In this document: positions 849-63,717 of the stretch, one piece after another
How positions within the stretch are numbered: the first letter of the stretch is position 1
Layout: the number at the start of each line of letters is the position of its first letter
Assembly: GCA_016795155.1 (NCBI GenBank)
Contig: JAEUIE010000057.1
Span: 62,001-126,000 of the forward strand
Direction of reading: 5' to 3'
DNA length: 64,000 nucleotides
Source of the DNA: Planctomycetia bacterium
GTDB taxonomy: Bacteria; Planctomycetota; Planctomycetia; Gemmatales; HRBIN36
Translations under genes and position numbers: made by a program
The notes under the pieces: model-generated
The model's input: the letters and a program-made list of their open reading frames with translations, nothing else
Told to the model about the DNA's origin: nothing
The model's database searches: none

Positions 849-2321
849 TTACCCCGTGGTGGCCATGATTGAGCCGAATTGCTCGCTTAAATCCAGAACA
901 TTGTAAGCCAGGGTGTCCACCTGGTCTGTGTAGACATCCAGTGTATCGTCGCCGGTGAACATTTCCAATTCCGAGAACCAGCCCTCCAGCCAGGGTGGGC
1001 CGGGATCTCGCGGGACAAAGATCTCTGCCTGGCTTGCTTTGGTGATCGATGGGGTGGCACGTGTCAGCTTGGATTTCCCCTTCGGCTCGACTTCCTTGAT
1101 CACGCACATGTTGGGATACTTCGTGCGGTCGCGGGCTTCGTTCACCAGGGCCATCTGGAAGCCGTTCGACTCGAAACCGGCGTACATCGGATTCCATCGC
1201 TGGGACAACTGGTAAAGCCGGGGGATAATCCCTTCGACGGGCAGCTTTTCCAGCACCACGTCCAGGATAAACAGGCGGCTTTTGGAGTCCTGGGCTGTGA
1301 CCAGGAAACAGGTGTTTTTCGACTGTTTCTTGGCACGGTTCGCGGGGTCCACCCAGATCGTGATCGTCAACCCAGCCTTGTAAACCAGGTTGTCAGCTCC
1401 GAAGTATCCTTCGCCGGCGATCAGCGCGTCCCCAATGTCGTTGTACCGTGGGAACCAGTCGCGGTTGTAGCGGCCCTGGCCGTGTACCGTCATATCCCCT
1501 TCTTCGAGCTGCATACGGGTGACCGGGTCCAGCTCAGCCAGGGAGAGCTTGTAATCTGCGATGTCACCGTGGGGGTTGTCCTGCATGCGCGCGGGGATGA
1601 ACGCCCGGCCCTGGTTCCACCACACCTGCGAGAAATAGCGGTTGCGGTCTTTACGCTGGCACTCCAGGGCCTCGGCACTGCAGTATCGATACTTCACCCA
1701 GGCACCGAGCTGGTCCACTGGTGGATTGAACGCAATGCGAATGCGGCTGGGGATGTGCTGGTCAGCTTTCAGGCGGCGTAAGCGGCTGATGAGGTAGATC
1801 GCGGGCTGGCTGGGTGTCAGGTGGCCTTCATCCGTGCCAATGAAGTGGTACTCGGCTGAGTTGTGGGCCAGGGCGTCCGCCATATTGCTGCCCTGGGCAA
1901 ACTTGATCTTGGCACCAGAATAGAACTCGAACTGGTGCTGCTGGGCGTTCCATTTCACCCCGGGCTTGCCTTGCCACCACTTCAAAGCTCGATCGAGAAT
2001 AGCATTCGGCTTTTTCATGTCTTCCAGCGTCTTCCGGAAGATCAATGCCGCGTAATTGGGGATGTCGTGGTACATCACTGCGGCTGCCAGCATCGCCTGG
2101 GTTTTGCCACCGAATGCCGCTCCACCATATCCCACTTCGCGCACGTCATTGTGCAGTAGAAACAGGGCTTGGCGAGGGCTGGGCTTAAACGGGATGTACG
2201 GGTTCTGCAGGACTCTCTGGTGAAACGTCTGCAGCACTCTGGCCAGCGATTGATTTTCTGTACAGTTCGAGGCTGGCGAAGTAGGGGGCGAGATCGGCTG
2301 GGTCGGGCCGGGGTGTATCAT
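849..2321 (-). CDS. Phage terminase large subunit
   Basis: This is the motor and nuclease that packages DNA into a procapsid. An N-terminal ATPase shows a Walker A motif (GGAAFGGKT, about residues 66-74) and a Walker B segment (YHFIGTDEG, near 160). A C-terminal RNase H-like nuclease begins near VDPAN, where the Asp would bind metal. The length of 490 residues is normal for the family. The chosen ATG at 2321 makes the gene overlap the end of the upstream small-subunit gene by 137 bases. A start nearer the ATPase domain is possible because the first 40 residues are low-complexity. Confidence 0.85.
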   Translation of the reverse strand: MIHPGPTQPISPPTSPASNCTENQSLARVLQTFHQRVLQNPYIPFKPSPRQALFLLHNDVREVGYGGAAFGGKTQAMLAAAVMYHDIPNYAALIFRKTLEDMKKPNAILDRALKWWQGKPGVKWNAQQHQFEFYSGAKIKFAQGSNMADALAHNSAEYHFIGTDEGHLTPSQPAIYLISRLRRLKADQHIPSRIRIAFNPPVDQLGAWVKYRYCSAEALECQRKDRNRYFSQVWWNQGRAFIPARMQDNPHGDIADYKLSLAELDPVTRMQLEEGDMTVHGQGRYNRDWFPRYNDIGDALIAGEGYFGADNLVYKAGLTITIWVDPANRAKKQSKNTCFLVTAQDSKSRLFILDVVLEKLPVEGIIPRLYQLSQRWNPMYAGFESNGFQMALVNEARDRTKYPNMCVIKEVEPKGKSKLTRATPSITKASQAEIFVPRDPGPPWLEGWFSELEMFTGDDTLDVYTDQVDTLAYNVLDLSEQFGSIMATTG

Positions 2322-2835
2322 CAGGCTTTTCTTCAGTAGGCTCTGGAAGCACTGCTGGCACCTGGGAAGGCTTACTCATTTCCCGCACTACCCCCAGCAG
2401 TTTCAGCCTCTGATCTTGCCATTTTCGCTTCTCTACACTGAAACGCGGGTCCGGTGCGGAGGTCACCACCTCGTCAGATTTCTGTTTATTCTTGCCACGT
2501 CCTGCTGATACCGTTCGCTCAGTCAACTGCTTGCGTGACTCCTCATAGGCCAGGCAGGCTTCCTTGTAGGCGCTGTCGGCAATCATCAGCTCACGGACCA
2601 GTCGGTCCTCATAGAAATCCACCGCTTCCTGGCGGTAGTATTCGATCACGGTCTTGATGTCAGCCTGTACTGTTTTGTAGCTGACTCCCCAGCCTCTTTT
2701 CCCCTTCGGGTCCGCCTTCTCGAGTTCCTTTAATCTTTGCGAAATCGCCCGGGTGGATAACTGCTGGTGGTACAGCATGGCTACGTGGGCCTGCCGCTCA
2801 CTGAGCTGGAGTTGTTTACGCGGCGAAACGATCAT
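2185..2835 (-). CDS. Putative terminase small subunit (helix-turn-helix)
   Basis: This 216-residue protein begins with a DNA-binding-like region: residues 10-60 resemble a helix-turn-helix of the kind that reads repeated steps (LSERQAHVAMLYHQQLSTRAISQRL). A charged helical middle and a Pro-rich tail follow. Its position directly upstream of, and overlapping, the large terminase gene is the standard place for the small subunit that recognises packaging sites. The name rests on that context plus the helix-turn-helix, not on clear family motifs. A regulator of the element is the alternative. Confidence 0.6.
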   Translation of the reverse strand: MIVSPRKQLQLSERQAHVAMLYHQQLSTRAISQRLKELEKADPKGKRGWGVSYKTVQADIKTVIEYYRQEAVDFYEDRLVRELMIADSAYKEACLAYEESRKQLTERTVSAGRGKNKQKSDEVVTSAPDPRFSVEKRKWQDQRLKLLGVVREMSKPSQVPAVLPEPTEEKPDDTPRPDPADLAPYFASLELYRKSIAGQSAADVSPESPAEPVHPV

Positions 2836-37594: not shown

Positions 37595-37779
37595 TTGCGA
37601 CATCCGCAAACACATGTATAAACAACTGTTTTGGCAATCGAATTGAAGTTAAGGGGTGGAACAACATTCAACAACTTACGAGTCGTTCTCTAACCGCTGT
37701 GCATTTCTTTTATTTCTTTGCAATCGAATTGCTGTTCCCTTATCGTGAGTGCATCTGAATTAACATCAGGGGCATGACC

Positions 37780-39486
37780 ATGTTACGTCTTTGTGTCAAG
37801 AGTTTTATCTGGCTGGGCTTGCTTACATTACTCATCGTCGGTTCATCGCACGTAACAGCTTCGGCTCGTCATGAAGAGAAGCCATTATTCACTCGGCTCA
37901 TTGGTTCACACACACTCATGTTTGTGCATATTCGCGTTGGCGAATACCTGCAGATGCCAATGGTGAAAGGTGTACTGGATAACATGCAGGATGTTCGTGC
38001 GGAGGCAGAAAAAGGAATTCGCCAGGCGTTGGGTGTTGGATTGACCGATCTTGAGACTGCCACCATTTACGTTGATCAGCCTCGCGTAGTAAACGGCGAT
38101 GTTCATGAACCTCGTGAGCCTTACTTTATTTTTCAAACTAAGAAAGAAATACAACTCGATGCACTCAAATCAGCAATTGGGGAACGACAGAACGTCGTCA
38201 AGTTTGGAAAATACGATGTAATGGTAGGAGACAAACTGGCAGTTTCGTTGCTCGACAGCAAAACCATGTTGATGATCGTGATGCAGGATCGGCGGCGTGA
38301 AATGATCCAGCAGGACTGGCTCCTGCACTTCGCCAGTCTGGATGCTGAAAATGAACTGCCTGATGGCTTGAAAGAAAGCGCTGCACTGGCATCTGCCAGC
38401 AAACATATCCTGGTCTCCGGCTTCCATATTCCCAAGGAACTGGGCACTGTACTGCAGGATAAATTGAAGCAGGCTCCTGCTGCCATGGCACCATTCAAGT
38501 CACTGGCTCAAGTGCAATCAGGCGTCATCACTGCTGATTATCTGCCGAACAGCGAAAATGATTTCCAGATGGTATGTCGAGCCCGATTCTCGGAGGAAGG
38601 TCAGGCGAAAGCGGGCATGGGAGCCATTCGGTTTGCTATTGCAGCTGGCAAGATGGCGATGACCAGTTCGCCAGCCAGCAATGATCCTGAGATCAAGGAA
38701 GCGTTCATGCTCGCCAACAAGCAACTCGATGCCATCAAAACCGAAGTCAAGCAATCAGAACTGCATATTTCCTATGGCATGAATAGTAAGTTGATGATAC
38801 CTCTTCTGGCATCCGCCATTGAAAGGGTTCGTAACGCTGCGGATCGTATGATCAGTGGGAGCAATATGCGGCAACTGCTGATTGCCATGCATAATTACCA
38901 CAACGATTATAACTTCATACCACCTGCAGTTTCGATGAAGGATGGAAAGTCACTTCACAGTTGGCGGGTACACATTCTGCCTTACATCGAGCAGGATCAG
39001 CTTTACAAACAGTTGAAGATGGACGAGCCCTGGGACAGCGATCACAACAAGAAATTATTTGAATCGGTTCCCATGCCCAAGATGTTTGCCCATCCAGGCA
39101 AACGAGATGGTGATACGAAGAAGACCTATTATAAAGTGTTCGTCAGCAAACCTGAGAAGCAGCTTCGATCCGGTTTCAGGTTTGGCAGCAAAGTTACCTT
39201 GGGTCAAGTGGCAGTGCAGGATGGAACGAGCAACACCATTGCCATGATCGAATCTGGTCCGCCGGTGCTGTGGTATCAGCCGGAAGATATCGAATTTGAT
39301 GCTACCGTTGCTTTGCCGAAGCTGATCAGCCCCTGGAAGAACAATAAAGTTTCAGTGACCTTTTTTGATGGAACCGTCCGCACCATTTGGCTGGGACAAA
39401 ATGAAGCAGTTTTGAAGGCATTAATTACCGTCAACGGAAATGAAGAGATCGACATTTCCAAGTTGGAAAACGAGGAGAAGAAGTAA
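37780..39486 (+). CDS. Secreted DUF1559-type protein, first of a tandem pair
   Basis: A signal peptide (about residues 1-28) precedes a long N-terminal domain. The last 220 residues carry the DUF1559 signature: SGSNMRQLLIAMHNYHNDYN, LHSWRVHILPYIEQDQLYKQL, DGTSNTIAMIESGP and VTFFDGTVRTIWL. Standard DUF1559 proteins start with a pilin-like N-terminus; here that helix is replaced by an unrelated domain of about 340 residues. The start ATG 37780 has AGGGG at seven bases. The next gene (39532-41232) is a paralogue. Confidence 0.85.
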   Translation: MLRLCVKSFIWLGLLTLLIVGSSHVTASARHEEKPLFTRLIGSHTLMFVHIRVGEYLQMPMVKGVLDNMQDVRAEAEKGIRQALGVGLTDLETATIYVDQPRVVNGDVHEPREPYFIFQTKKEIQLDALKSAIGERQNVVKFGKYDVMVGDKLAVSLLDSKTMLMIVMQDRRREMIQQDWLLHFASLDAENELPDGLKESAALASASKHILVSGFHIPKELGTVLQDKLKQAPAAMAPFKSLAQVQSGVITADYLPNSENDFQMVCRARFSEEGQAKAGMGAIRFAIAAGKMAMTSSPASNDPEIKEAFMLANKQLDAIKTEVKQSELHISYGMNSKLMIPLLASAIERVRNAADRMISGSNMRQLLIAMHNYHNDYNFIPPAVSMKDGKSLHSWRVHILPYIEQDQLYKQLKMDEPWDSDHNKKLFESVPMPKMFAHPGKRDGDTKKTYYKVFVSKPEKQLRSGFRFGSKVTLGQVAVQDGTSNTIAMIESGPPVLWYQPEDIEFDATVALPKLISPWKNNKVSVTFFDGTVRTIWLGQNEAVLKALITVNGNEEIDISKLENEEKK

Positions 39487-39531: not shown

Positions 39532-41232
39532 ATGCTGCGACATTGGTTAACGGGTCTATCGTACCTGGGTTGCCTAGCAGTGCTTCTGGCCTGTTCCAGT
39601 TCAGATAAGCTGCAGGCACAGCATGAAGCCAAGCCGTGGTTCGCGAGGTTGATTGGCCCGCAGACCATGGTGTTCGGACACCTGCGTGTTTACGATACAC
39701 TGCAAAGGCCGTTCTTCAAAATGGTGCGACAGCAATTAAAGCAATCGGGCATCGAGCCGTTCAAAGAAATGGAAAAGATGCTGGGCATTGGCCTGGATGA
39801 CATCGATAGCGTAACGGTTTATGTGGAACAGCCGGAGATTGATAATGGCAGACCGAAGGAACCACGGAGGCCGCACATTTTAATTAGTGGCAGGAAGCCG
39901 ATTGCTGGTGATGTTGTGCGCAAATCGCTGGGGGATGAAGTAGCAACTACAAAGTTTGGTAAATATGAACTGCAGCAAGGGAAGAGTATGGCATACTCGC
40001 TGCTGGATGAGAAGACTTTGCTGTTGTTTTCTATTCCAACTGGCCCGCAACGAGTGGATCAACAGTATTTCCTGCCTTACTTTACACAGTTGGAAGCTGA
40101 GGTTGAAGTCAACAAAGCAATGCTGGAAAGCATCAATCTGGCAGTCGGTGGCAAGTATGCAGGAGTTGCTGGTTTTCGGATTCCGGAGGAACTGTCAACA
40201 TTATTGCAGGCAGAGATGAACAATGTGCCACCAGCCGCTACTCCATTCAAAGCACTTGTCAAAGTACAGTCAGGCCAGGTGAGCCTGCAATTTGTGGACG
40301 ACAGCCCCAACGATATCCAGTTGCAGGTTCGTGGTCGGTTTCAAGACGAGAAGGCAGCCCAGGCAGGTCTGGGATCCATCAAGTTTGCCATAGCTGCTGC
40401 CAAGATGTCTGTTTCCAGTATTGTTGGCGGAAATGCGGCTGAGAACAAAGTTACAGCGCAAGCGATCACCAGGTTATTCGAGGCCATTAAAACGGAAACC
40501 AAAGGCAGTGAAGTACATCTTTCCTACGAGGCCAATACTCCCATACTCATGGCATTATTGTTGCCTGCTATTCAGAAAGTGCGCGTTGCAGCCAACCGCA
40601 CTGTGAGTGGTAATAACATGCGACAGGCATTGATTGCCATGCACAATTATTACAACGATTATGATCGCTTGCCTGATGTGGTCAGCATGAAGGAAGGCAA
40701 GCCATTGCACAGTTGGCGAGTGCATATTCTGCCTTACGTCGAGTATGACCAACTGTACAAACAGATCAAACTGGACGAACCATGGGACAGTGAACACAAC
40801 TTGAAGATATTCGAATCAGTGCCGATCCCCAAAATCTATGATCACCCTGGGCAGAACGAAGGAGCAAACAGGAAGACATACTACAAGGCCTTCTACAGCA
40901 AGCCTGACAAGAATCCTGCTGCAGGGTTCAAACTAGGAGCACGTACCACGTTTGCCACCATGGTTGATGGGACCAGCAACACCATTGCCCTGGTGGAAGC
41001 AGGTCCGCCTGTGCTCTGGTACAAGCCGGAGGATATTGAGTTCGATCCGAATGTACCGTTACCAAAGATGGTAAGCCCGTGGCCTGATAACCGCGTTCAG
41101 GTGGCTTTCTTTGATGGTCATATTCAGTCGTTGTGGCTCGGTCAGAAGGAAGATTTGTGGAAAGCGTCTATCACTGCGAACGGTGGCGAAGTGGTGGATC
41201 GGTCAGGGCTGGAGTTGAAGGAGAAGAAATAG
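39532..41232 (+). CDS. Secreted DUF1559-type protein, second of a tandem pair
   Basis: A 566-residue paralogue of the upstream gene, similar along its whole length, including the N-terminal domain (FARLIGPQTMVFGHLRVYDT against FTRLIGSHTLMFVHIRVGEY) and the C-terminal DUF1559 motifs (GNNMRQALIAMHNYYNDYD; LHSWRVHILPYVEYDQLYKQ). A signal peptide and AAGGA precede it. The gap to the first copy is 45 bases. Secreted cell-surface or pilin-related roles have been suggested for the family, without proof. Confidence 0.85.
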   Translation: MLRHWLTGLSYLGCLAVLLACSSSDKLQAQHEAKPWFARLIGPQTMVFGHLRVYDTLQRPFFKMVRQQLKQSGIEPFKEMEKMLGIGLDDIDSVTVYVEQPEIDNGRPKEPRRPHILISGRKPIAGDVVRKSLGDEVATTKFGKYELQQGKSMAYSLLDEKTLLLFSIPTGPQRVDQQYFLPYFTQLEAEVEVNKAMLESINLAVGGKYAGVAGFRIPEELSTLLQAEMNNVPPAATPFKALVKVQSGQVSLQFVDDSPNDIQLQVRGRFQDEKAAQAGLGSIKFAIAAAKMSVSSIVGGNAAENKVTAQAITRLFEAIKTETKGSEVHLSYEANTPILMALLLPAIQKVRVAANRTVSGNNMRQALIAMHNYYNDYDRLPDVVSMKEGKPLHSWRVHILPYVEYDQLYKQIKLDEPWDSEHNLKIFESVPIPKIYDHPGQNEGANRKTYYKAFYSKPDKNPAAGFKLGARTTFATMVDGTSNTIALVEAGPPVLWYKPEDIEFDPNVPLPKMVSPWPDNRVQVAFFDGHIQSLWLGQKEDLWKASITANGGEVVDRSGLELKEKK

Positions 41233-41828: not shown

Positions 41829-42863
41829 ATGGAAACGGTAACGATTATGCCAGAGGTGCTGGGGATAGATATTGGTGGTGCGAACCTGAAAGCAGCCAAC
41901 ACGCGGGGCGAGGCGGTGATTTTGCCATTCCCGCTATGGAAACAGCCTGACAAGCTGGCTGGCGGTCTGATGGAACTTTTAGTACGGCTGCCTCACAAGG
42001 GGCCAGTAGCCATCACCATGACCGGTGAACTATGCGACTGCTTTGAAAGTCGCAGCACGGGGGTGCGACATATTCTGAAGGCTGCAGTAGAAGCGTTCAA
42101 GAATCAGCCTGTCTTTGTCTGGAGAAACGATGCTCGCTGGGCCAGCACCAGTCATGCCCACGATGATCCCATGCCGGTCGCCTCGGCCAACTGGCTCGCC
42201 TCTGCAACTTACTGTGCCCGTTACCTTCCTCACGACAGCGGTTGGTTTTTTGACCTCGGCTCCACCACGCTGGACATGATACCGGTTGATCAGGGCAAAG
42301 TAGTTTCCACCAGCAGAACCGATCTGGACCGATTGTATGCAGGTGAACTGGCTTACCTCGGTGCCAGCCGAACGCCAGTGTGCCACTTGCTGCAACAGGC
42401 TGATCTGGAAGAAAAGACAATTACGCTGGCAGCAGAGTTCTTTGCCACGCTCGATGATGCCATGATCATTCTTGGTTATTCACCTGAACAGCAGGATGAC
42501 CGACAGACTGCAGATGGCAAGCCCCGCACCAGGGCTTATGCTCTTGCCCGCATGGCACGCATGGCTTGTTCTGACCTGGATGAACTGGGAGAAGCGAACG
42601 TTCAGCTTCTGAGTGAACAAGTTATCGCAGCGTTTCGAGAAAAGCTGAGTGGCCAACTGCAGCGAGCACAACTTAGTTCCCATCCCTGGGGTGGCATCAT
42701 CCTGGCTGGTTCTGGCGAAGGCATCCTGGCAGAAGAAGTTGCCATGCTGGATGATACAACGAATCCGGTGGTTTCCATGACTGGACGATTGGGGCCGGAT
42801 GTTTCCTCAGCGCTGGCAGCTTACTCGGTAGCAGTGCTCTTATCGGAAAGGCAATCCAAATGA
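41829..42863 (+). CDS. mfnF: Methanofuran pathway protein of the MfnF/hydantoinase-oxoprolinase-like family
   Basis: A 344-residue ASKHA-fold protein beginning VLGIDIGGANLKAANTRG. The central DLGSTTLDMIPVD is the second phosphate-binding motif. The family is known as 'H4MPT-linked C1 transfer pathway protein'; the archaeal member MfnF condenses the furan diphosphate with gamma-glutamyltyramine. I base the symbol on family resemblance plus the adjoining kinase and mfnB. A second ATG at 41847 could be the start. The stop overlaps the next ATG (ATGA). Confidence 0.8.
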   Translation: METVTIMPEVLGIDIGGANLKAANTRGEAVILPFPLWKQPDKLAGGLMELLVRLPHKGPVAITMTGELCDCFESRSTGVRHILKAAVEAFKNQPVFVWRNDARWASTSHAHDDPMPVASANWLASATYCARYLPHDSGWFFDLGSTTLDMIPVDQGKVVSTSRTDLDRLYAGELAYLGASRTPVCHLLQQADLEEKTITLAAEFFATLDDAMIILGYSPEQQDDRQTADGKPRTRAYALARMARMACSDLDELGEANVQLLSEQVIAAFREKLSGQLQRAQLSSHPWGGIILAGSGEGILAEEVAMLDDTTNPVVSMTGRLGPDVSSALAAYSVAVLLSERQSK

Positions 42864-43516
42864 AGAAGCGACCGGTGGTCATTAAAGTGGGTGGAAGCCT
42901 GCTCACCCTAAAAGCACTGATTCGGGAACTCGATGAGTTTCTCGATCATGTCGGCACGCATCAGGTGGTGCTGCTCACCGGTGGTGGCTTGGCGGTTAAA
43001 TCCTTGCGAAATATGAAAGGTAAAGCCCGGCTGCCTGAAGAACAGGCCCACTGGCAATGCATCAGGCTGATGAGTGATCTGACTCGATCACTCTGTGAAC
43101 AACTGCCCAATTCGGTAGCAGTCAGTACCTGGGACGAAGTGGAAGCCGCGTGGAAATCGGATCGCTATCCCTGCTTCATGGTGGAATCGTTCCTGCGAAC
43201 GGATGAAGAAAACAAGAATCACTTGCCTCATACGTGGGATGTCAGCAGCGACAGCATTGCAGCCCACCTGGCAGCGAAGTACAAAGCCAATTTGATACTG
43301 CTCAAAGCCTGCGAGTTGCCCGCCAGGCAAGTGAAAGCGGAAACACTGGTGAAAAAGGGCATTGTGGATGCATGGTTTCCGCAAGCAGTGAAAAAAGTCA
43401 AACGCTGGGAAGTCAGGAATCTTCCCGGAGGTACTGCACCAGAGATAGCACTCGATCTTTCTTCAATTGCTGGGCGCGGTCGTTCCCGTCGCAAACCACG
43501 CCGCGTACCGCGATGA
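42860..43516 (+). CDS. mfnE: Amino-acid-kinase-fold protein, MfnE-like
   Basis: A 218-residue kinase of the aspartokinase fold. It has VIKVGGSLLTLKALIREL at the start, VVLLTGGGLAVKSLR as the nucleotide-binding loop and HTWDVSSDSIAAHLAAKY as the active-site segment. In methanogens MfnE phosphorylates the aminomethylfuran phosphate to the diphosphate. The gene is coupled to the mfnF-like gene. Its last 104 bases overlap, tail to tail, with mfnB on the other strand. The basic C-terminal tail (GRGRSRRKPRRVPR) looks unusual. Confidence 0.78.
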   Translation: MKKRPVVIKVGGSLLTLKALIRELDEFLDHVGTHQVVLLTGGGLAVKSLRNMKGKARLPEEQAHWQCIRLMSDLTRSLCEQLPNSVAVSTWDEVEAAWKSDRYPCFMVESFLRTDEENKNHLPHTWDVSSDSIAAHLAAKYKANLILLKACELPARQVKAETLVKKGIVDAWFPQAVKKVKRWEVRNLPGGTAPEIALDLSSIAGRGRSRRKPRRVPR

Positions 43517-44123
43517 TATCAGGCACCACTTCCTTCTTCAGCACAGCAATATCGTGGATGCGCAATGAGCCAGCCAGGGCTAGTGCAATGTCGTGGCATC
43601 GACAGAGTTTCTGCCATCGTTGCAACTGTCGAAGCGAACACCAATCAAGCAGACTGCTGCCATCCTTGATGCTGGTATCAACAAGGAGAACAGGGGTATG
43701 TGCTGATAGCAATCGAGCCAATTCTACCCATCGAAACATTTCATCGAAGTGTATGCCATGTACGCGAACATGGTCAGCATAAACAACGCCAACCATTTGA
43801 GTGGGATGCAGTCGCTGTTGTAATTGAAACCAGTATCGATTGGCACGTTGTCGGTCTGCCAGTGTCGTCAACCGGGAAAGACCTACCTTGGCCCAGATAA
43901 TGCCAGAAGGAATTGGCTGGTGTTTTGCTTGGAACCATTCACCTAGAGCCATGCTGACAGGTATATTGCCTGCTTGTTTCACAATGTTTGAAACCAGTAA
44001 ATTGGATGGACGGCCTAGTGAGCCGCGCGAGGGATTTTTGATATCCAGGATGTCCACGCCAGCCTGAAGGGCATCGTGAGCTTCCTGTTCGGTTCGTACA
44101 CTGACCAGCAGACGGGTTTTCAT
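43413..44123 (-). CDS. mfnB: (5-formylfuran-3-yl)methyl phosphate synthase
   Basis: A 236-residue TIM-barrel enzyme (DUF556) that makes the furan ring of methanofuran from two molecules of glyceraldehyde 3-phosphate. It shows the family's LLVSVRTEQEAHDALQAG opening, the Lys in VDILDIKNPSRGSLGRP and the second Lys in IWAKVGL. I start at ATG 44123; an upstream extension to 44171 has no support. The overlap with the kinase gene shows they converge. Confidence 0.88.
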   Translation of the reverse strand: MKTRLLVSVRTEQEAHDALQAGVDILDIKNPSRGSLGRPSNLLVSNIVKQAGNIPVSMALGEWFQAKHQPIPSGIIWAKVGLSRLTTLADRQRANRYWFQLQQRLHPTQMVGVVYADHVRVHGIHFDEMFRWVELARLLSAHTPVLLVDTSIKDGSSLLDWCSLRQLQRWQKLCRCHDIALALAGSLRIHDIAVLKKEVVPDIIAVRGVVCDGNDRAQQLKKDRVLSLVQYLREDS

Positions 44124-44201
44124 GGAAATCAAATGCAGTTGATTACAAATACGCTGCTGATAGATCAGCATAACCCATTTACATTAGATGAAATAGTGCC
44201 T

Positions 44202-45422
44202 ATGCCCACTCTTGCTTACATTGCGCTCGGAAGTAACCTTGGCGACCGTGCTGGTTATCTGCAGGCAGCTATTTCCCGGTTGCAGCAGGAACCCGGCATT
44301 CGGGTGGTGAATGTTTCCAGTCATTGGGAAACTTCTCCTGTGGGCGGCCCGGCCGGGCAGGGGGCATATCTGAATGCTGCTGCTATTCTGGAAACGGACT
44401 TATCGCCAAAGGCTTTGTTGAAGGCACTGTTGCAGGTGGAAGCGGAGCAGGACAGAAAGCGTCAGGAACGCTTTGGACCTCGCACGCTTGATCTGGACAT
44501 CATGCTCTATGGCGATCAGGTGGTGAAAGAGCCGGATTTGACCATTCCCCATCCTCGCTTGCACGAACGTCGGTTCATGCTGGGGCCACTGGCCGAGATT
44601 GCTCCCCAGGTTGTACATCCTGTATTCAAGCGTACTATAGCGCAATTACTTTCGGAATCAGGTCATCGTCCGTTGTTGGGCAAGCGTGCGCTGGTAACCG
44701 GCGCATCCAGTGGTATTGGCAAAGCTATTGCGTTGCAGTTGGCGGAGCATGGTGCCGATGTCATCGTCCATGCAAGGCAATCTGGTGCAGCGCTGGATCA
44801 GACTGCTTCAGCTATCCAGGCGATGGGCCGATTTTCGCACACGTTGCTGGCTGATCTTGCGTATCAAACTGCCTGCACAAAACTGGCAGAGGAAGCATGG
44901 AACCACTGGCAGGGTCTCGAAATTCTGGTGTGCAATGCCGGTAGTGATATTCTCACTGGTGCAGGCAAGGCTATGAGCTATGAAGCCAAGCTGGAATCAC
45001 TCTGGCATGTGGATGTTGCAGGCACCATTCACCTGTCCCGTTCGGTGGGCGCTCGGATGAAGCAAGCCGGGCAGGGTACGATTTTGACCATGGGCTGGGA
45101 TCAGGCTGAATATGGTTTTGATGGGGAAAGTGGCGAACTCTTTTGTACAGCCAAAGCTGCTGTAGCTGGGTTTACTCGCAGCCTGTCGCTTAACCTGGCA
45201 CCCGAAGTGCGAGTAAATGGATTGGCACCAGGTTGGATCAAAACCAAGTGGGGTGAAAAGGCGCCGGCAGAATGGCAGGAACGGGCAATCCAGGAAGCTC
45301 CATTACGTCGCTGGGGCACTCCCGAAGAGATTGCGAAAACGGCAGCCTGGCTTTGTTCGCCCGATGCGAACTTCATCACCGGGCAGATGGTGCGAATCAA
45401 CGGCGGCGTGATCCGCCATTGA
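44202..45422 (+). CDS. Fusion of 6-hydroxymethyl-dihydropterin pyrophosphokinase (FolK) with a short-chain dehydrogenase
   Basis: A 406-residue protein. Residues 1-155 are a complete HPPK: GSNLGDR (10-16), the Mg-binding Asp pair in RTLDLDIMLYGD (about 97 and 99), and HPRLHERRFMLGPL. Residues 160-406 form an SDR with the nucleotide motif TGASSGIG (166-173) and NAG (245-247). The catalytic motif YxxxK reads FCTAK (314-318), so Phe replaces Tyr, and the Ser of the usual ITxxGS step is absent (ILTMGWD). FolM/PTR1 pteridine reductases belong to this SDR class. Position beside methanofuran genes suggests pterin work, perhaps tetrahydromethanopterin. Confidence 0.88.
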   Translation: MPTLAYIALGSNLGDRAGYLQAAISRLQQEPGIRVVNVSSHWETSPVGGPAGQGAYLNAAAILETDLSPKALLKALLQVEAEQDRKRQERFGPRTLDLDIMLYGDQVVKEPDLTIPHPRLHERRFMLGPLAEIAPQVVHPVFKRTIAQLLSESGHRPLLGKRALVTGASSGIGKAIALQLAEHGADVIVHARQSGAALDQTASAIQAMGRFSHTLLADLAYQTACTKLAEEAWNHWQGLEILVCNAGSDILTGAGKAMSYEAKLESLWHVDVAGTIHLSRSVGARMKQAGQGTILTMGWDQAEYGFDGESGELFCTAKAAVAGFTRSLSLNLAPEVRVNGLAPGWIKTKWGEKAPAEWQERAIQEAPLRRWGTPEEIAKTAAWLCSPDANFITGQMVRINGGVIRH

Positions 45423-60186: not shown

Positions 60187-63100
60187 TCAGACAACGGGAA
60201 CCGGGCTTTGCCATTGATCCACATCCTGCCGGCAATGGGGGGTGAAATGCTCAATGCCCAGGGCTGTTTGGTAAGCCTGCAGACCCAGTTCACTCAGTAC
60301 AGGCAATTGTTCAAGTTGAATACCAACGATGGTTCGGTAGAGAATGACTTCATCGTTACGATTGATGTTGACAAGCTGAGTATGCGGATACGCAGTGGTA
60401 GCCACCTCACCCAGTTTGATGCCCTGTGGCGATTCATTCGCCATCAGAAACACAGCTTCGCCTGTATGATCATCATTGAGGAAATGCATCATCGGCTCTG
60501 CTTCATTGTAAACTTTCTGAAAGGCAGCAGCGGTATCGGGGTTCTTGTCAAGAAACAATCCTGCTGCATCATCGAGCACTAATCGTTGTTCAAGAAAACG
60601 TTTGGCTTCCTGCATGATCAGGTCGCGGACAGGTTTCAGCTGGTCAATCGTAGAAAGACAAAGTTCCCCGATGCGTGGATGCGATTTTTCCATGCGCTCG
60701 GAGACAAAATGGTCGATCTTGTCGAGATCATAACTGGTGATGCTGTCAACAAACTGCTGTACGGCCTGCAGCATGTCGTTGCAGCCATAGGGAATGATGA
60801 CCGATTCGGTGATGCGATTGACCGTGACAGGCTTTTCGGGCAATTTCTCCATGTCGAGAGTTGCCTTCTGCAATTCGAGCAAGCGGCTTCGGCAAAAACG
60901 AACATCACGGGTCTGATCAGAGCAGGCGCCACGGAAACCGATATAGACTTTAGAGATGTACTCATTCATGACAGCCCGCAGTCGAGCACGGTAGATGGCG
61001 AGCAGACGCTCGCCGGGAGTGGTCATGCTGGGCCACTTCTTTTTCGGCACAGCTTTCAGGCGATCATACTCAGCTAAATCCTGCCGTAGATATTCGAGAG
61101 CCTGAACGTATTCTGACTGAGCCTGTTTGGCTTTGGCTTCATGGGAGGCAATCCAGCTATCGAGTTTGGTGATAGCGTAGCGGAGAGCCTCTTCGGTAGC
61201 GCCCATCCGAAGGCCTGATTTATCGAGATGTCGATAGACTGTGAAGACCAGTCTGGTAGCGCCGGTACGGACTACCTTTTCGCAGGCATCCTTGAGCGCG
61301 CGATGCAGCTTGGTGTTGTTCTCCGCGAGGTCCAGCGGGTTGGCGCTGGAGCCTTCGCCCGTGGAACCAAGACTTTTGACGATCTCCCTCAATGCTCGTT
61401 TCACTTCATCGCTGTTGGGCAGCTTTTCATGAATGCCATGCTGAAATGGGGCGATGATCGTTTTGATGATGTCTTCGCTGGAGTAGCCGAGCGAACGTTT
61501 GGCAGCCAGTTCAAAGTACTGAAACAGTGATTCGGGCGAGAGTTTCTCGTAGTGGAAGAAACCATCGATCCGGTGCCTCACGACATTCTGTATTTCAGGT
61601 GTCGCTGAGATCAACCATTTGTCGAGAATGCGCTGGAAGACCAGATGCGAAGCTTTGCGGATGAGCGCGCGACGAGGCGAATTCAGCACACGAAGCCCCA
61701 TCGTCTGATAAGGCGATGTGCCAGCAGTAAGGCGAACAGGATCAGCCACGCGACCGAGAGCTGTTGTCAGTAGTCGGTTGAGCACTTCAGCTACCTTCTG
61801 AATCTGAAGCGGTGCGTTATCCTTGCGTTCCTGGGTTGCAGCGGGGCGTGGCGGGGTTTCAATGAGCTGCACCTGCGTAAACGGTGGCGTGGAATCTTCT
61901 ACCCATTCAGACTTGGATTCATAGATGGCTCGGAACGGCATGCCAGCCTGCTGATAGTGGTACAACTCATACAGCGCAGCTACGGCATTGGCTTCAGGCA
62001 GATCGGCAGCTTCCATGCAGGCATCATCAGGCACATAGCAGATGCCGACGATTTCAGGTTCCGCGATATCCATTTTCCGCATGAGGTGCTTGATGATGTA
62101 GGCACAGTCAATCATCATGCCGCTGGCGGTGCCACCCCCAAGATGTCCCACGATATAGATGCGTGGAGTGGTGGAAAGAAATGATTCCTTGGTGTTCTTT
62201 TCGGTTTCGGCTTGAACCACCGGGTCCATGATGGTTTTGAGGTCGCGTTCAAACCTGGCGCTGAAGGAGCGATAATGCTCAATCAGAGCCAGTCGCCCCA
62301 AGGCACGGATGCCACTTGTCATCTGCGTCCGTGGCATACGGTAGAGAATGTTGGTATTCAGCCATTCTTCCACGGGCGGCAGGCTGTCACGTGACCGGAT
62401 GTAGCGTGCTGGCCGGTTCAGTCGGGTTAAAACCAGGTCTTCATGGGTATCGATTCGTGCCAGGTGATCGCCGGGAGGAGCAGGATCAGTATCGACGGCA
62501 ATGGATCGAATGATAGGTAAGCCTGACGGGCCGTACTGCAATTGCAGGCTTTGTTTGAGCCATTGCAGAGTGGCGCGTCCGAACTGCCCCAATCCAATCA
62601 ATATGGATGGACGCAATACTCCCGTAGAAGAGTCCTGAATGGGAGCAACTACAGCACGCTGGGGTGATGGTTTCCTTACCTGAGTAATGAGTCCGCTGGC
62701 CATTCGGCTGCCAACATGATGTGTCACCGGGCCCAGTTCGAAGTAATCATCTACCCGAAGCGACGTACCAGCAATAGTGGCGTCTGGTGGCTGAGACTTC
62801 CCCCGCATGGGGCTGACTGGAATCGGGCTTTTGGGAGCCAGTGGTATTTCAGGAATTTCGGTCGGCGCTTCCACTGTAGGTTTCAGCAGGGAATGACGGA
62901 GCATGTGCACCATCGTCATGCAGTTTTCCCAGCGGTCACCTGGCTTCTTGGATAGTGCCTTTGAGATGATGTGGCGGTCAGCCGGTGGCAATGGCTCAAC
63001 GTTGGGTACAGCCTGAATGTGCTGCATCATCAACTGCTTGGCATTGGTGCCACTGAACGGGCGAATGCCTGTCAGAAGTTCCTGAAAGACAATGGCCAGG

Positions 63101-63717
63101 CTATACTGATCACTGCAGCGGCTGACATAGCCTTCAAATGTTTCGGGTGCGGCATATACCGGTGTTACTCCACCGGTAACTTTTGCATTGACACCTTCCA
63201 GATCTTTCACCAGGCCGAAATCGCCAATCTTGATGTGGTTGTACATCAGGAAGAGATTCTGCGGCTTGATGTCGAGGTGAAGCAGGTCGTGCTCGGTGGT
63301 CATAATGTCGAGTGCTTCAGCGATTTCTTCCATGTATCCCAGCAACTCTTCGCGGGGAATGCCCATCAGACCTTTGCTGCGGTAGACCCGGAACCGATCA
63401 TACAGATTGCAGTCGGCCAGTTCCGTGACAATGATCAAACGGCCTTCAATGATCTCATAGCGTTCAATGCTGAGGATGTAAGGATGTCGAATATTCTTGA
63501 TGCGTTCAATGGAACGCAGTTCCTGTTCTGCCTTGATGCTGTCATCCACCGCACCGACATCTTCGAGATCGCCATAAACGAATTTGATGGCTTTCTGAAT
63601 CTTGCCTGGAGCTTCACATTTCCAGACTTCACCAAATCCACCACCGCCCAGGCGTTCGATGAGCCGGTATCCCGGAATGGGTTCAGCATCGGCTTCAATC
63701 AACAGGGGCATGGGCAC
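60187..63717 (-). CDS. Serine/threonine protein kinase fused to a tubulin/FtsZ-like domain
   Basis: A 1176-residue protein. Residues about 15-275 form a kinase: GGGGFGEV (23-31), Lys45, catalytic loop HLDIKPQN with Leu in place of Arg (147-154), DFG (166-168). A Pro-rich linker follows. From about 370 a second nucleotide-binding domain starts: ILIGLGQFG (372-380), AVDTD (407-411), and the tubulin-type signature GHLGGGTASGMMIDCAY (524-540). Family resemblance is to the Pfam group 'Tubulin-like' (Tubulin_2). The C-terminal 500 residues are helical. No membrane span is seen. Confidence 0.88.
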   Translation of the reverse strand: MPMPLLIEADAEPIPGYRLIERLGGGGFGEVWKCEAPGKIQKAIKFVYGDLEDVGAVDDSIKAEQELRSIERIKNIRHPYILSIERYEIIEGRLIIVTELADCNLYDRFRVYRSKGLMGIPREELLGYMEEIAEALDIMTTEHDLLHLDIKPQNLFLMYNHIKIGDFGLVKDLEGVNAKVTGGVTPVYAAPETFEGYVSRCSDQYSLAIVFQELLTGIRPFSGTNAKQLMMQHIQAVPNVEPLPPADRHIISKALSKKPGDRWENCMTMVHMLRHSLLKPTVEAPTEIPEIPLAPKSPIPVSPMRGKSQPPDATIAGTSLRVDDYFELGPVTHHVGSRMASGLITQVRKPSPQRAVVAPIQDSSTGVLRPSILIGLGQFGRATLQWLKQSLQLQYGPSGLPIIRSIAVDTDPAPPGDHLARIDTHEDLVLTRLNRPARYIRSRDSLPPVEEWLNTNILYRMPRTQMTSGIRALGRLALIEHYRSFSARFERDLKTIMDPVVQAETEKNTKESFLSTTPRIYIVGHLGGGTASGMMIDCAYIIKHLMRKMDIAEPEIVGICYVPDDACMEAADLPEANAVAALYELYHYQQAGMPFRAIYESKSEWVEDSTPPFTQVQLIETPPRPAATQERKDNAPLQIQKVAEVLNRLLTTALGRVADPVRLTAGTSPYQTMGLRVLNSPRRALIRKASHLVFQRILDKWLISATPEIQNVVRHRIDGFFHYEKLSPESLFQYFELAAKRSLGYSSEDIIKTIIAPFQHGIHEKLPNSDEVKRALREIVKSLGSTGEGSSANPLDLAENNTKLHRALKDACEKVVRTGATRLVFTVYRHLDKSGLRMGATEEALRYAITKLDSWIASHEAKAKQAQSEYVQALEYLRQDLAEYDRLKAVPKKKWPSMTTPGERLLAIYRARLRAVMNEYISKVYIGFRGACSDQTRDVRFCRSRLLELQKATLDMEKLPEKPVTVNRITESVIIPYGCNDMLQAVQQFVDSITSYDLDKIDHFVSERMEKSHPRIGELCLSTIDQLKPVRDLIMQEAKRFLEQRLVLDDAAGLFLDKNPDTAAAFQKVYNEAEPMMHFLNDDHTGEAVFLMANESPQGIKLGEVATTAYPHTQLVNINRNDEVILYRTIVGIQLEQLPVLSELGLQAYQTALGIEHFTPHCRQDVDQWQSPVPVV

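Follow-up and report, generated by a model that had tools for sequence, protein, structure and literature searches.

A gene in the window (the whole 64,000-nucleotide stretch of planctomycete DNA analysed here) encodes an HPPK (FolK) domain and an SDR domain in a single chain. We propose, with moderate confidence, that its product is a pterin enzyme with two activities, serving the biosynthesis of both tetrahydromethanopterin (H4MPT) and folate, and that the SDR is most likely an NADPH-dependent 7,8-dihydropterin reductase and probably the dihydromethanopterin reductase. The proposal draws on conservation, distribution, genomic context and the absence of known substitutes, from which we infer the substrate, the step and the path of the proton. 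H4MPT carries one-carbon units and is most familiar from methane-producing microbes, and the last step of its synthesis is carried out in other bacteria by DmrA or DmrB. Planctomycetes have an archaeal-type one-carbon pathway, for which the last enzyme of coenzyme synthesis was described as having no recognised gene (PMC5020050). According to that account, Afp was unrecognised in planctomycetes and DmrA served as its substitute in Methylobacterium (Chistoserdova 2016, PMC5020050), so that the planctomycete dihydromethanopterin reductase was a gap in 2016; DmrA itself is described as nearly restricted to alpha-proteobacteria (PMC6193120).

The initial annotation had read HPPK and SDR as joined in one chain, with the cofactor motif of the SDR kept, and both points were borne out. 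The gene is a single frame of 406 codons for amino acids (Table 1), and all 58 fused genes that we recovered from the window's order are stop-free in one frame, which led us to reject a frameshift or read-through artefact. The N-terminal domain scores 145.1 bits with the TIGR01498 folK model, against a cut-off of 54.1, and is matched by the Pfam HPPK family too. R85, R87, R94, D97, D99, H117, R119 and R123 are kept in 58/58 fusions, and we take the Asp pair, the His and the Arg among them to be catalytic. In five fusion-bearing genomes of the order that were tested, including that of the window, the fused HPPK is the sole HPPK found; in the window's genome, it thus presumably serves both folate and H4MPT. 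SDR families match residues 161-403 (Pfam adh_short_C2 at 2.4e-46), and the TGxxxGxG residues of the cofactor loop (G167, G171, I172 and G173) are present in every one of the 58 fusions. AlphaFold2 models of the full-length chain and of the isolated SDR reached a mean pLDDT of 92.6 and 93.1, respectively, and the best solved-structure match of the SDR-domain model was FabG (4jro_D; Z 35.1, rmsd 1.5, 237 residues aligned). FabG-like chains were present, and PTR1 and FolM chains absent, among the 50 structure matches listed for both models, an absence that carries no weight in a list of this length.

Table 1. The fusion gene, its domains and conserved positions, and the adjoining genes, in window coordinates.
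Feature	Position	Strand	Basis
HPPK-SDR fusion gene, 406 aa	44202..45422	+	single open frame; ATG at 44202, stop 45420-45422
HPPK (FolK) domain, residues 5-135	44214..44606	+	TIGR01498, PF01288
SDR domain, residues 158-404	44673..45413	+	PF13561/PF00106, structure model
Asp249 (NAGxD)	44946..44948	+	157/157
Asp271 at catalytic Asn position	45012..45014	+	hhalign to FabG; 157/157
Trp299-Asp300-Gln301	45096..45104	+	W and D 157/157, Q 155/157
Phe314-x3-Lys318 replacing YxxxK	45141..45155	+	F 153/157, Y 4/157, K 157/157
MfnB-like (4HFCP_synth), divergent neighbour	43413..44171	-	PF04476 1.6e-49
MfnE-like amino-acid-kinase-family gene	42860..43516	+	NF040622 41.5 bits (below cut-off 300); PF00696
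MfnF-like / H4MPT-linked C1 transfer protein	41829..42863	+	TIGR03123 269.5 bits (above cut-off 244.1)

Elsewhere in the window, a 1176-aa frame (60187-63717, minus strand) combines a protein kinase domain with a tubulin-like Tubulin_2 domain, and a tandem pair of genes at 37774-39486 and 39532-41232 (plus strand) encodes proteins that look alike and both carry a DUF1559 domain at the C-terminus. Two adjacent frames at 849-2835 (minus strand) had no match in Pfam and presumably resemble phage terminase large and small subunits.

The fusion, of which the initial annotation knew no other example, is the rule in the window's order, where 58 of 61 genomes carry it. The three order genomes without it (G023, G033 and G041) gave no HPPK match whatsoever, so that an assembly gap is probably a likelier explanation than a split gene. 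Beyond this order, the SDR stands as a protein of its own: of 63 phylum genomes that were matched, 15 were matched by HPPK only and were excluded, leaving 48 of 392 phylum genomes SDR-positive, 47 of these with a stand-alone SDR. A second sample, which partly overlaps with the whole-genome set, consisted of named contigs. Here the best 80 of 476 relatives comprised 35 fused loci (for example Limnoglobus roseus and Zavarzinella formosa) and 45 stand-alone loci (for example Gimesia MAGs and Singulisphaera acidiphila), and by title or tree label all 80 are Planctomycetota, except for one 'uncultured bacterium'. In a quick tree the fused copies require three changes, of which starred branches force one, and the copies that keep the catalytic Tyr (see below) require three, at least two of them forced; the tree is compatible with more than one history of the fusion and of the Tyr. 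Three loci titled Candidatus Kuenenia or Singulisphaera (L177, L222 and L183) group elsewhere in this tree, and the names of these MAGs may be wrong.

The distribution of the SDR closely follows that of Mch, an H4MPT enzyme. Among the 392 phylum genomes, Mch was found in 49, the SDR in 48 and both in 47 (Fisher p 3e-57, a value that ignores kinship). Since the test takes no account of kinship, more weight falls on the breadth of the link, which spans nine families, and on the joint absence of the SDR and Mch from two genomes of a single family within the same class (G227 and G417). The sole SDR-only genome, G409, is 55% complete, and Mch occurs without the SDR in G245 and G412. In the window's own order, Mch is present in 59 of 61 genomes.

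The methanofuran genes beside the fusion had been the initial annotation's pointer to a pterin step, and by themselves they are a weak clue to function. Of 40 order loci, four have MfnB beside the fusion, and these four belong to the window's own family; the one distant addition is a stand-alone copy, L117, which also adjoins MfnB, MfnE and MfnF; being confined in this way, the methanofuran neighbourhood was dropped as main evidence. The operons of the stand-alone SDR are far more telling. Their context was counted in 32 of the 47 phylum loci (those with wide flanks) and in all 45 named loci. The commonest neighbour is a DHPS-like gene (TIGR00284 / DUF6513), which we take to have a place in the H4MPT pathway. 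It lies downstream on the same strand in 22/32 phylum loci, and likewise in 22 of the 45 named loci from the best 80 of 476 relatives, the two matched stretches being separated by 29-155 bases or by a gene for pterin-4a-carbinolamine dehydratase. Upstream and in the same direction, mch and PTPS are found in L110, L114, L118, L238, L163 and L219, and in some loci the same run holds mch, an MptN-like ligase, PTPS, pterin-4a-carbinolamine dehydratase and a PabB/TrpE-like gene. Going by the family names of the libraries, the genes around the stand-alone SDR function in the synthesis and use of H4MPT. As a separate observation, the planctomycete H4MPT operon in L110 contains an MptN-like glutamate ligase gene (L110:3504-4487; 259 bits, below the cut-off of 350) and a CitG-like gene (L110:4430-5368), which may point to a side chain of H4MPT that is modified.

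Some of these neighbours could also be read in another way, with the SDR acting before condensation and reducing, for example, 6-hydroxymethyl-dihydropterin or a PTPS product. As in the case of FolM or sepiapterin reductase, this would yield a tetrahydropterin, here destined for the H4MPT branch or for use as a free cofactor. The SDR is fused to HPPK, the substrate of which is 6-hydroxymethyl-dihydropterin, and with HPPK as the partner in place of a late enzyme, an earlier substrate would fit just as well; PTPS directly upstream of the stand-alone SDR (5/32 phylum loci) and Pterin_4a downstream (6/32), the latter a carbinolamine dehydratase, would be in keeping with a tetrahydropterin that serves as a free cofactor. 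However, the DHPS-like gene is the more frequent companion, the presence of the SDR tracks Mch, and DHPS-type enzymes use dihydro diphosphates and are not known to use tetrahydro ones. Thus, we consider action at an earlier step unlikely, and favour reduction of dihydromethanopterin at the end of the pathway.

Alternatively, the SDR could be a dihydrofolate reductase that replaces FolA, given that DHFR (PF00186) is missing from 41 of 60 genomes, the window's included. If so, the SDR should follow the absence of DHFR, but it does not across the 392 genomes. Among Mch-positive genomes, 16 carry both SDR and DHFR, 31 the SDR without DHFR, two DHFR without the SDR, and none lacks both; among Mch-negative genomes, 228 lack DHFR and have no SDR either. 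Furthermore, DHFR accompanies ThyA (19/60 and 18/60 genomes, respectively), and since DHFR-less genomes mostly lack ThyA, their need for dihydrofolate reduction is low. A general substitute for FolA was rejected on these grounds and a FolA-replacing role seems to us improbable, although the distributions leave room for a dual role of the SDR on folate and H4MPT. No AfpA/DmrB match above cut-off was found in any of the 60 genomes, which yielded two sub-threshold fragments only. A small stand-alone RibD_C protein, found among 13 genomes tested in that of the window (G000:C10) and in some others, could be an alternative pterin reductase, which counts against our reading of the SDR. This protein was not found in G001, G009, G437, G121 and G193; PF00186 and AfpA/DmrB are likewise missing from these five, which leaves the SDR as the one reductase candidate found there.

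The active site of the SDR departs from that of classical SDRs in a consistent manner. We gathered 185 members, which collapsed to 157 distinct sequences for alignment. As the initial annotation had stated, the window protein reads FCTAK (residues 314-318) at the YxxxK position: Phe314 aligns with the catalytic Tyr of E. coli FabG and FolM, whereas the catalytic Lys is kept, and Tyr stands exactly at position 314 in just four relatives. The replacement of the catalytic Asn by Asp271 is a further change, absent from the initial annotation. Its placement of MGWD at the catalytic Ser was sound as to the motif, which spans residues 297-300, but the counterpart of the Ser itself is ambiguous, differing between alignment methods: hhalign against FolM sets Trp299 opposite the FolM Asp, whereas MAFFT against FabG treats WDQ as a three-residue insertion and sets residue 302 (Ala in 132, Ser in 24 and Val in one of the 157) opposite the Ser. 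Trp345, Trp350, Trp358 and Trp371 are each found in 157/157. The invariance of Lys318, Asp249, Asp271, Trp299 and Asp300 across all members argues for a maintained enzyme, and a decaying SDR was rejected. For the same reason, a pseudoenzyme that binds NADPH and stabilises or regulates HPPK, as the replaced Asn and Tyr of the tetrad and the doubtful Ser might suggest, is very improbable, all the more since most members are unfused (45 of the best 80 of 476 relatives, and 47 phylum copies), Lys318 and pocket residues are invariant, and the Tyr-keeping members share the operon context of the others.

These Tyr-bearing members are two Singulisphaera, Planctomycetales bacterium 10988 and genome G193. 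All four copies (L148, L151, L203 and L114) lie directly upstream of the DHPS-like gene, or of carbinolamine dehydratase and then the DHPS-like gene, and many Phe copies sit in the same arrangement, which speaks for a common function that does not require the hydroxyl. The initial annotation had named unfused homologues, or Tyr at the aligned position, as grounds for giving up its interpretation. Both exist, the former outside the order and the latter in 4/157 members, but since they sit in the same H4MPT operons as the rest, neither tells against a pterin role.

How does this SDR compare with known enzymes? With FabG-type SDRs it shares fold, sequence, the TGxxxGIG cofactor loop and the catalytic Lys; it differs in the changes of Tyr to Phe and Asn to Asp, in a Ser that is replaced or displaced by the WDQ segment, and in a context of pterin genes, not fatty acid genes. 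Quinonoid dihydropteridine reductase, likewise an SDR that acts on a dihydropterin, keeps YxxxK, and our alignment indicates that E. coli FolM keeps its Tyr. PTR1 and FolM are NADPH-dependent SDRs that convert dihydropterins to tetrahydropterins (PMC1971073, PMC1618733), as the planctomycete SDR presumably does, and FolM in particular reduces dihydrobiopterin and not oxidised biopterin (PMC1971073). Asp181 of PTR1, or the FolM Asp near the Ser site, is possibly matched by Asp300. Yet the TGX3RXG mark of PTR1/FolM (PMC1971073) is missing, position 171, the Arg of that motif, being Gly in 157/157 members; the Asp-Tyr-Lys triad is broken by a Tyr that is mostly Phe; and the fusion protein scores 149.8 bits with the NCBIfam pteridine reductase model NF006598, below its cut-off of 288. 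We rejected membership of PTR1/FolM because of the missing motif; if our reading is right, the SDR would work like these enzymes without belonging to them. DmrA would share both the reaction and the use of NADPH (PMC6193120), but it is of DHFR type, with a fold unrelated to SDRs, and PF00186 is not among the five Pfam matches of the fusion protein. DmrB/AfpA/DmrX, for which the proposed reaction is again the same, are FMN flavoproteins (PMC6193120), whereas the fold here is that of an SDR and no flavoprotein family is among those five matches. FolB-FolK and FolK-FolP also join HPPK to another pterin enzyme (PMC4224340, PMC1971073), but among known FolK fusions in the accessible open-access literature none with an SDR was found, nor was any published SDR or FolK-SDR fusion in the role of a dihydromethanopterin reductase, and the literature listed for SDRs without the Tyr gave no precedent.

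Based upon these comparisons, a mechanism can be suggested. The HPPK domain would produce 6-hydroxymethyl-7,8-dihydropterin diphosphate, as its family and conserved residues indicate, and the SDR would reduce a 7,8-dihydropterin to a tetrahydropterin on the H4MPT branch, the substrate probably being 7,8-dihydromethanopterin, so that this would be the last step. NADPH would occupy the Rossmann site, its nicotinamide ribose held by Lys318; hydride would pass to C6, and N5 would be protonated from an activated water, for which Asp300 or Asp271 is a possible activator. Pterins made de novo arise as 7,8-dihydro forms, so that a first half-reaction requiring Tyr would be dispensable and Phe could replace the Tyr. 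In PTR1, three residues take part in the first half-reaction: Asp181 draws a proton from the solvent, Tyr194 hands it on to the substrate at N8, and Lys198 keeps the nicotinamide in place. For its second half-reaction, PTR1 relies on hydride and an activated water, as DHFR does, and the Tyr is not the proton donor (PMC8996148, PMC1618733). Together with the co-occurrence with Mch and the stand-alone operons, this published mechanism lends support to the Tyr-independent reduction of a dihydropterin that the initial annotation had envisaged, although its interpretation as a whole is only partly supported.

Several observations run counter to a dihydromethanopterin reductase. The nearest sequence and fold are those of FabG, and the PTR1/FolM signature is missing. 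Mutating the triad costs PTR1 much of its activity (PMC8996148), so that loss of the Tyr is not free in PTR1 itself. In addition, the H4MPT cluster of G245 (L239) lacks the SDR, though it is compact and holds mch, MptN-like, CitG-like, carbinolamine dehydratase, DHPS-like and MfnB/E/F genes; G245 nevertheless carries a DHFR, its ThyA being encoded on another contig. G412 has Mch, and gave neither an SDR nor a DHPS-like match.

Weighing all of this, we see roughly even chances that the family represents a third, unrelated kind of dihydromethanopterin reductase, a Tyr-less SDR that would rely on Lys and an Asp-activated water, spread across H4MPT-encoding planctomycetes and fused to HPPK in one order. 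The SDR is a concrete candidate for the planctomycete gap, present in nearly all Mch-positive genomes sampled, and, if the assignment is true, it would fill the dihydromethanopterin reductase gap recorded for planctomycetes in 2016, and an early and the last pterin step would share one chain in one order. If right, it would also be a natural Tyr-less case in a Tyr-dependent family, made possible because the substrate arrives one reduction step further on, with the four Tyr-bearing relatives as natural controls.
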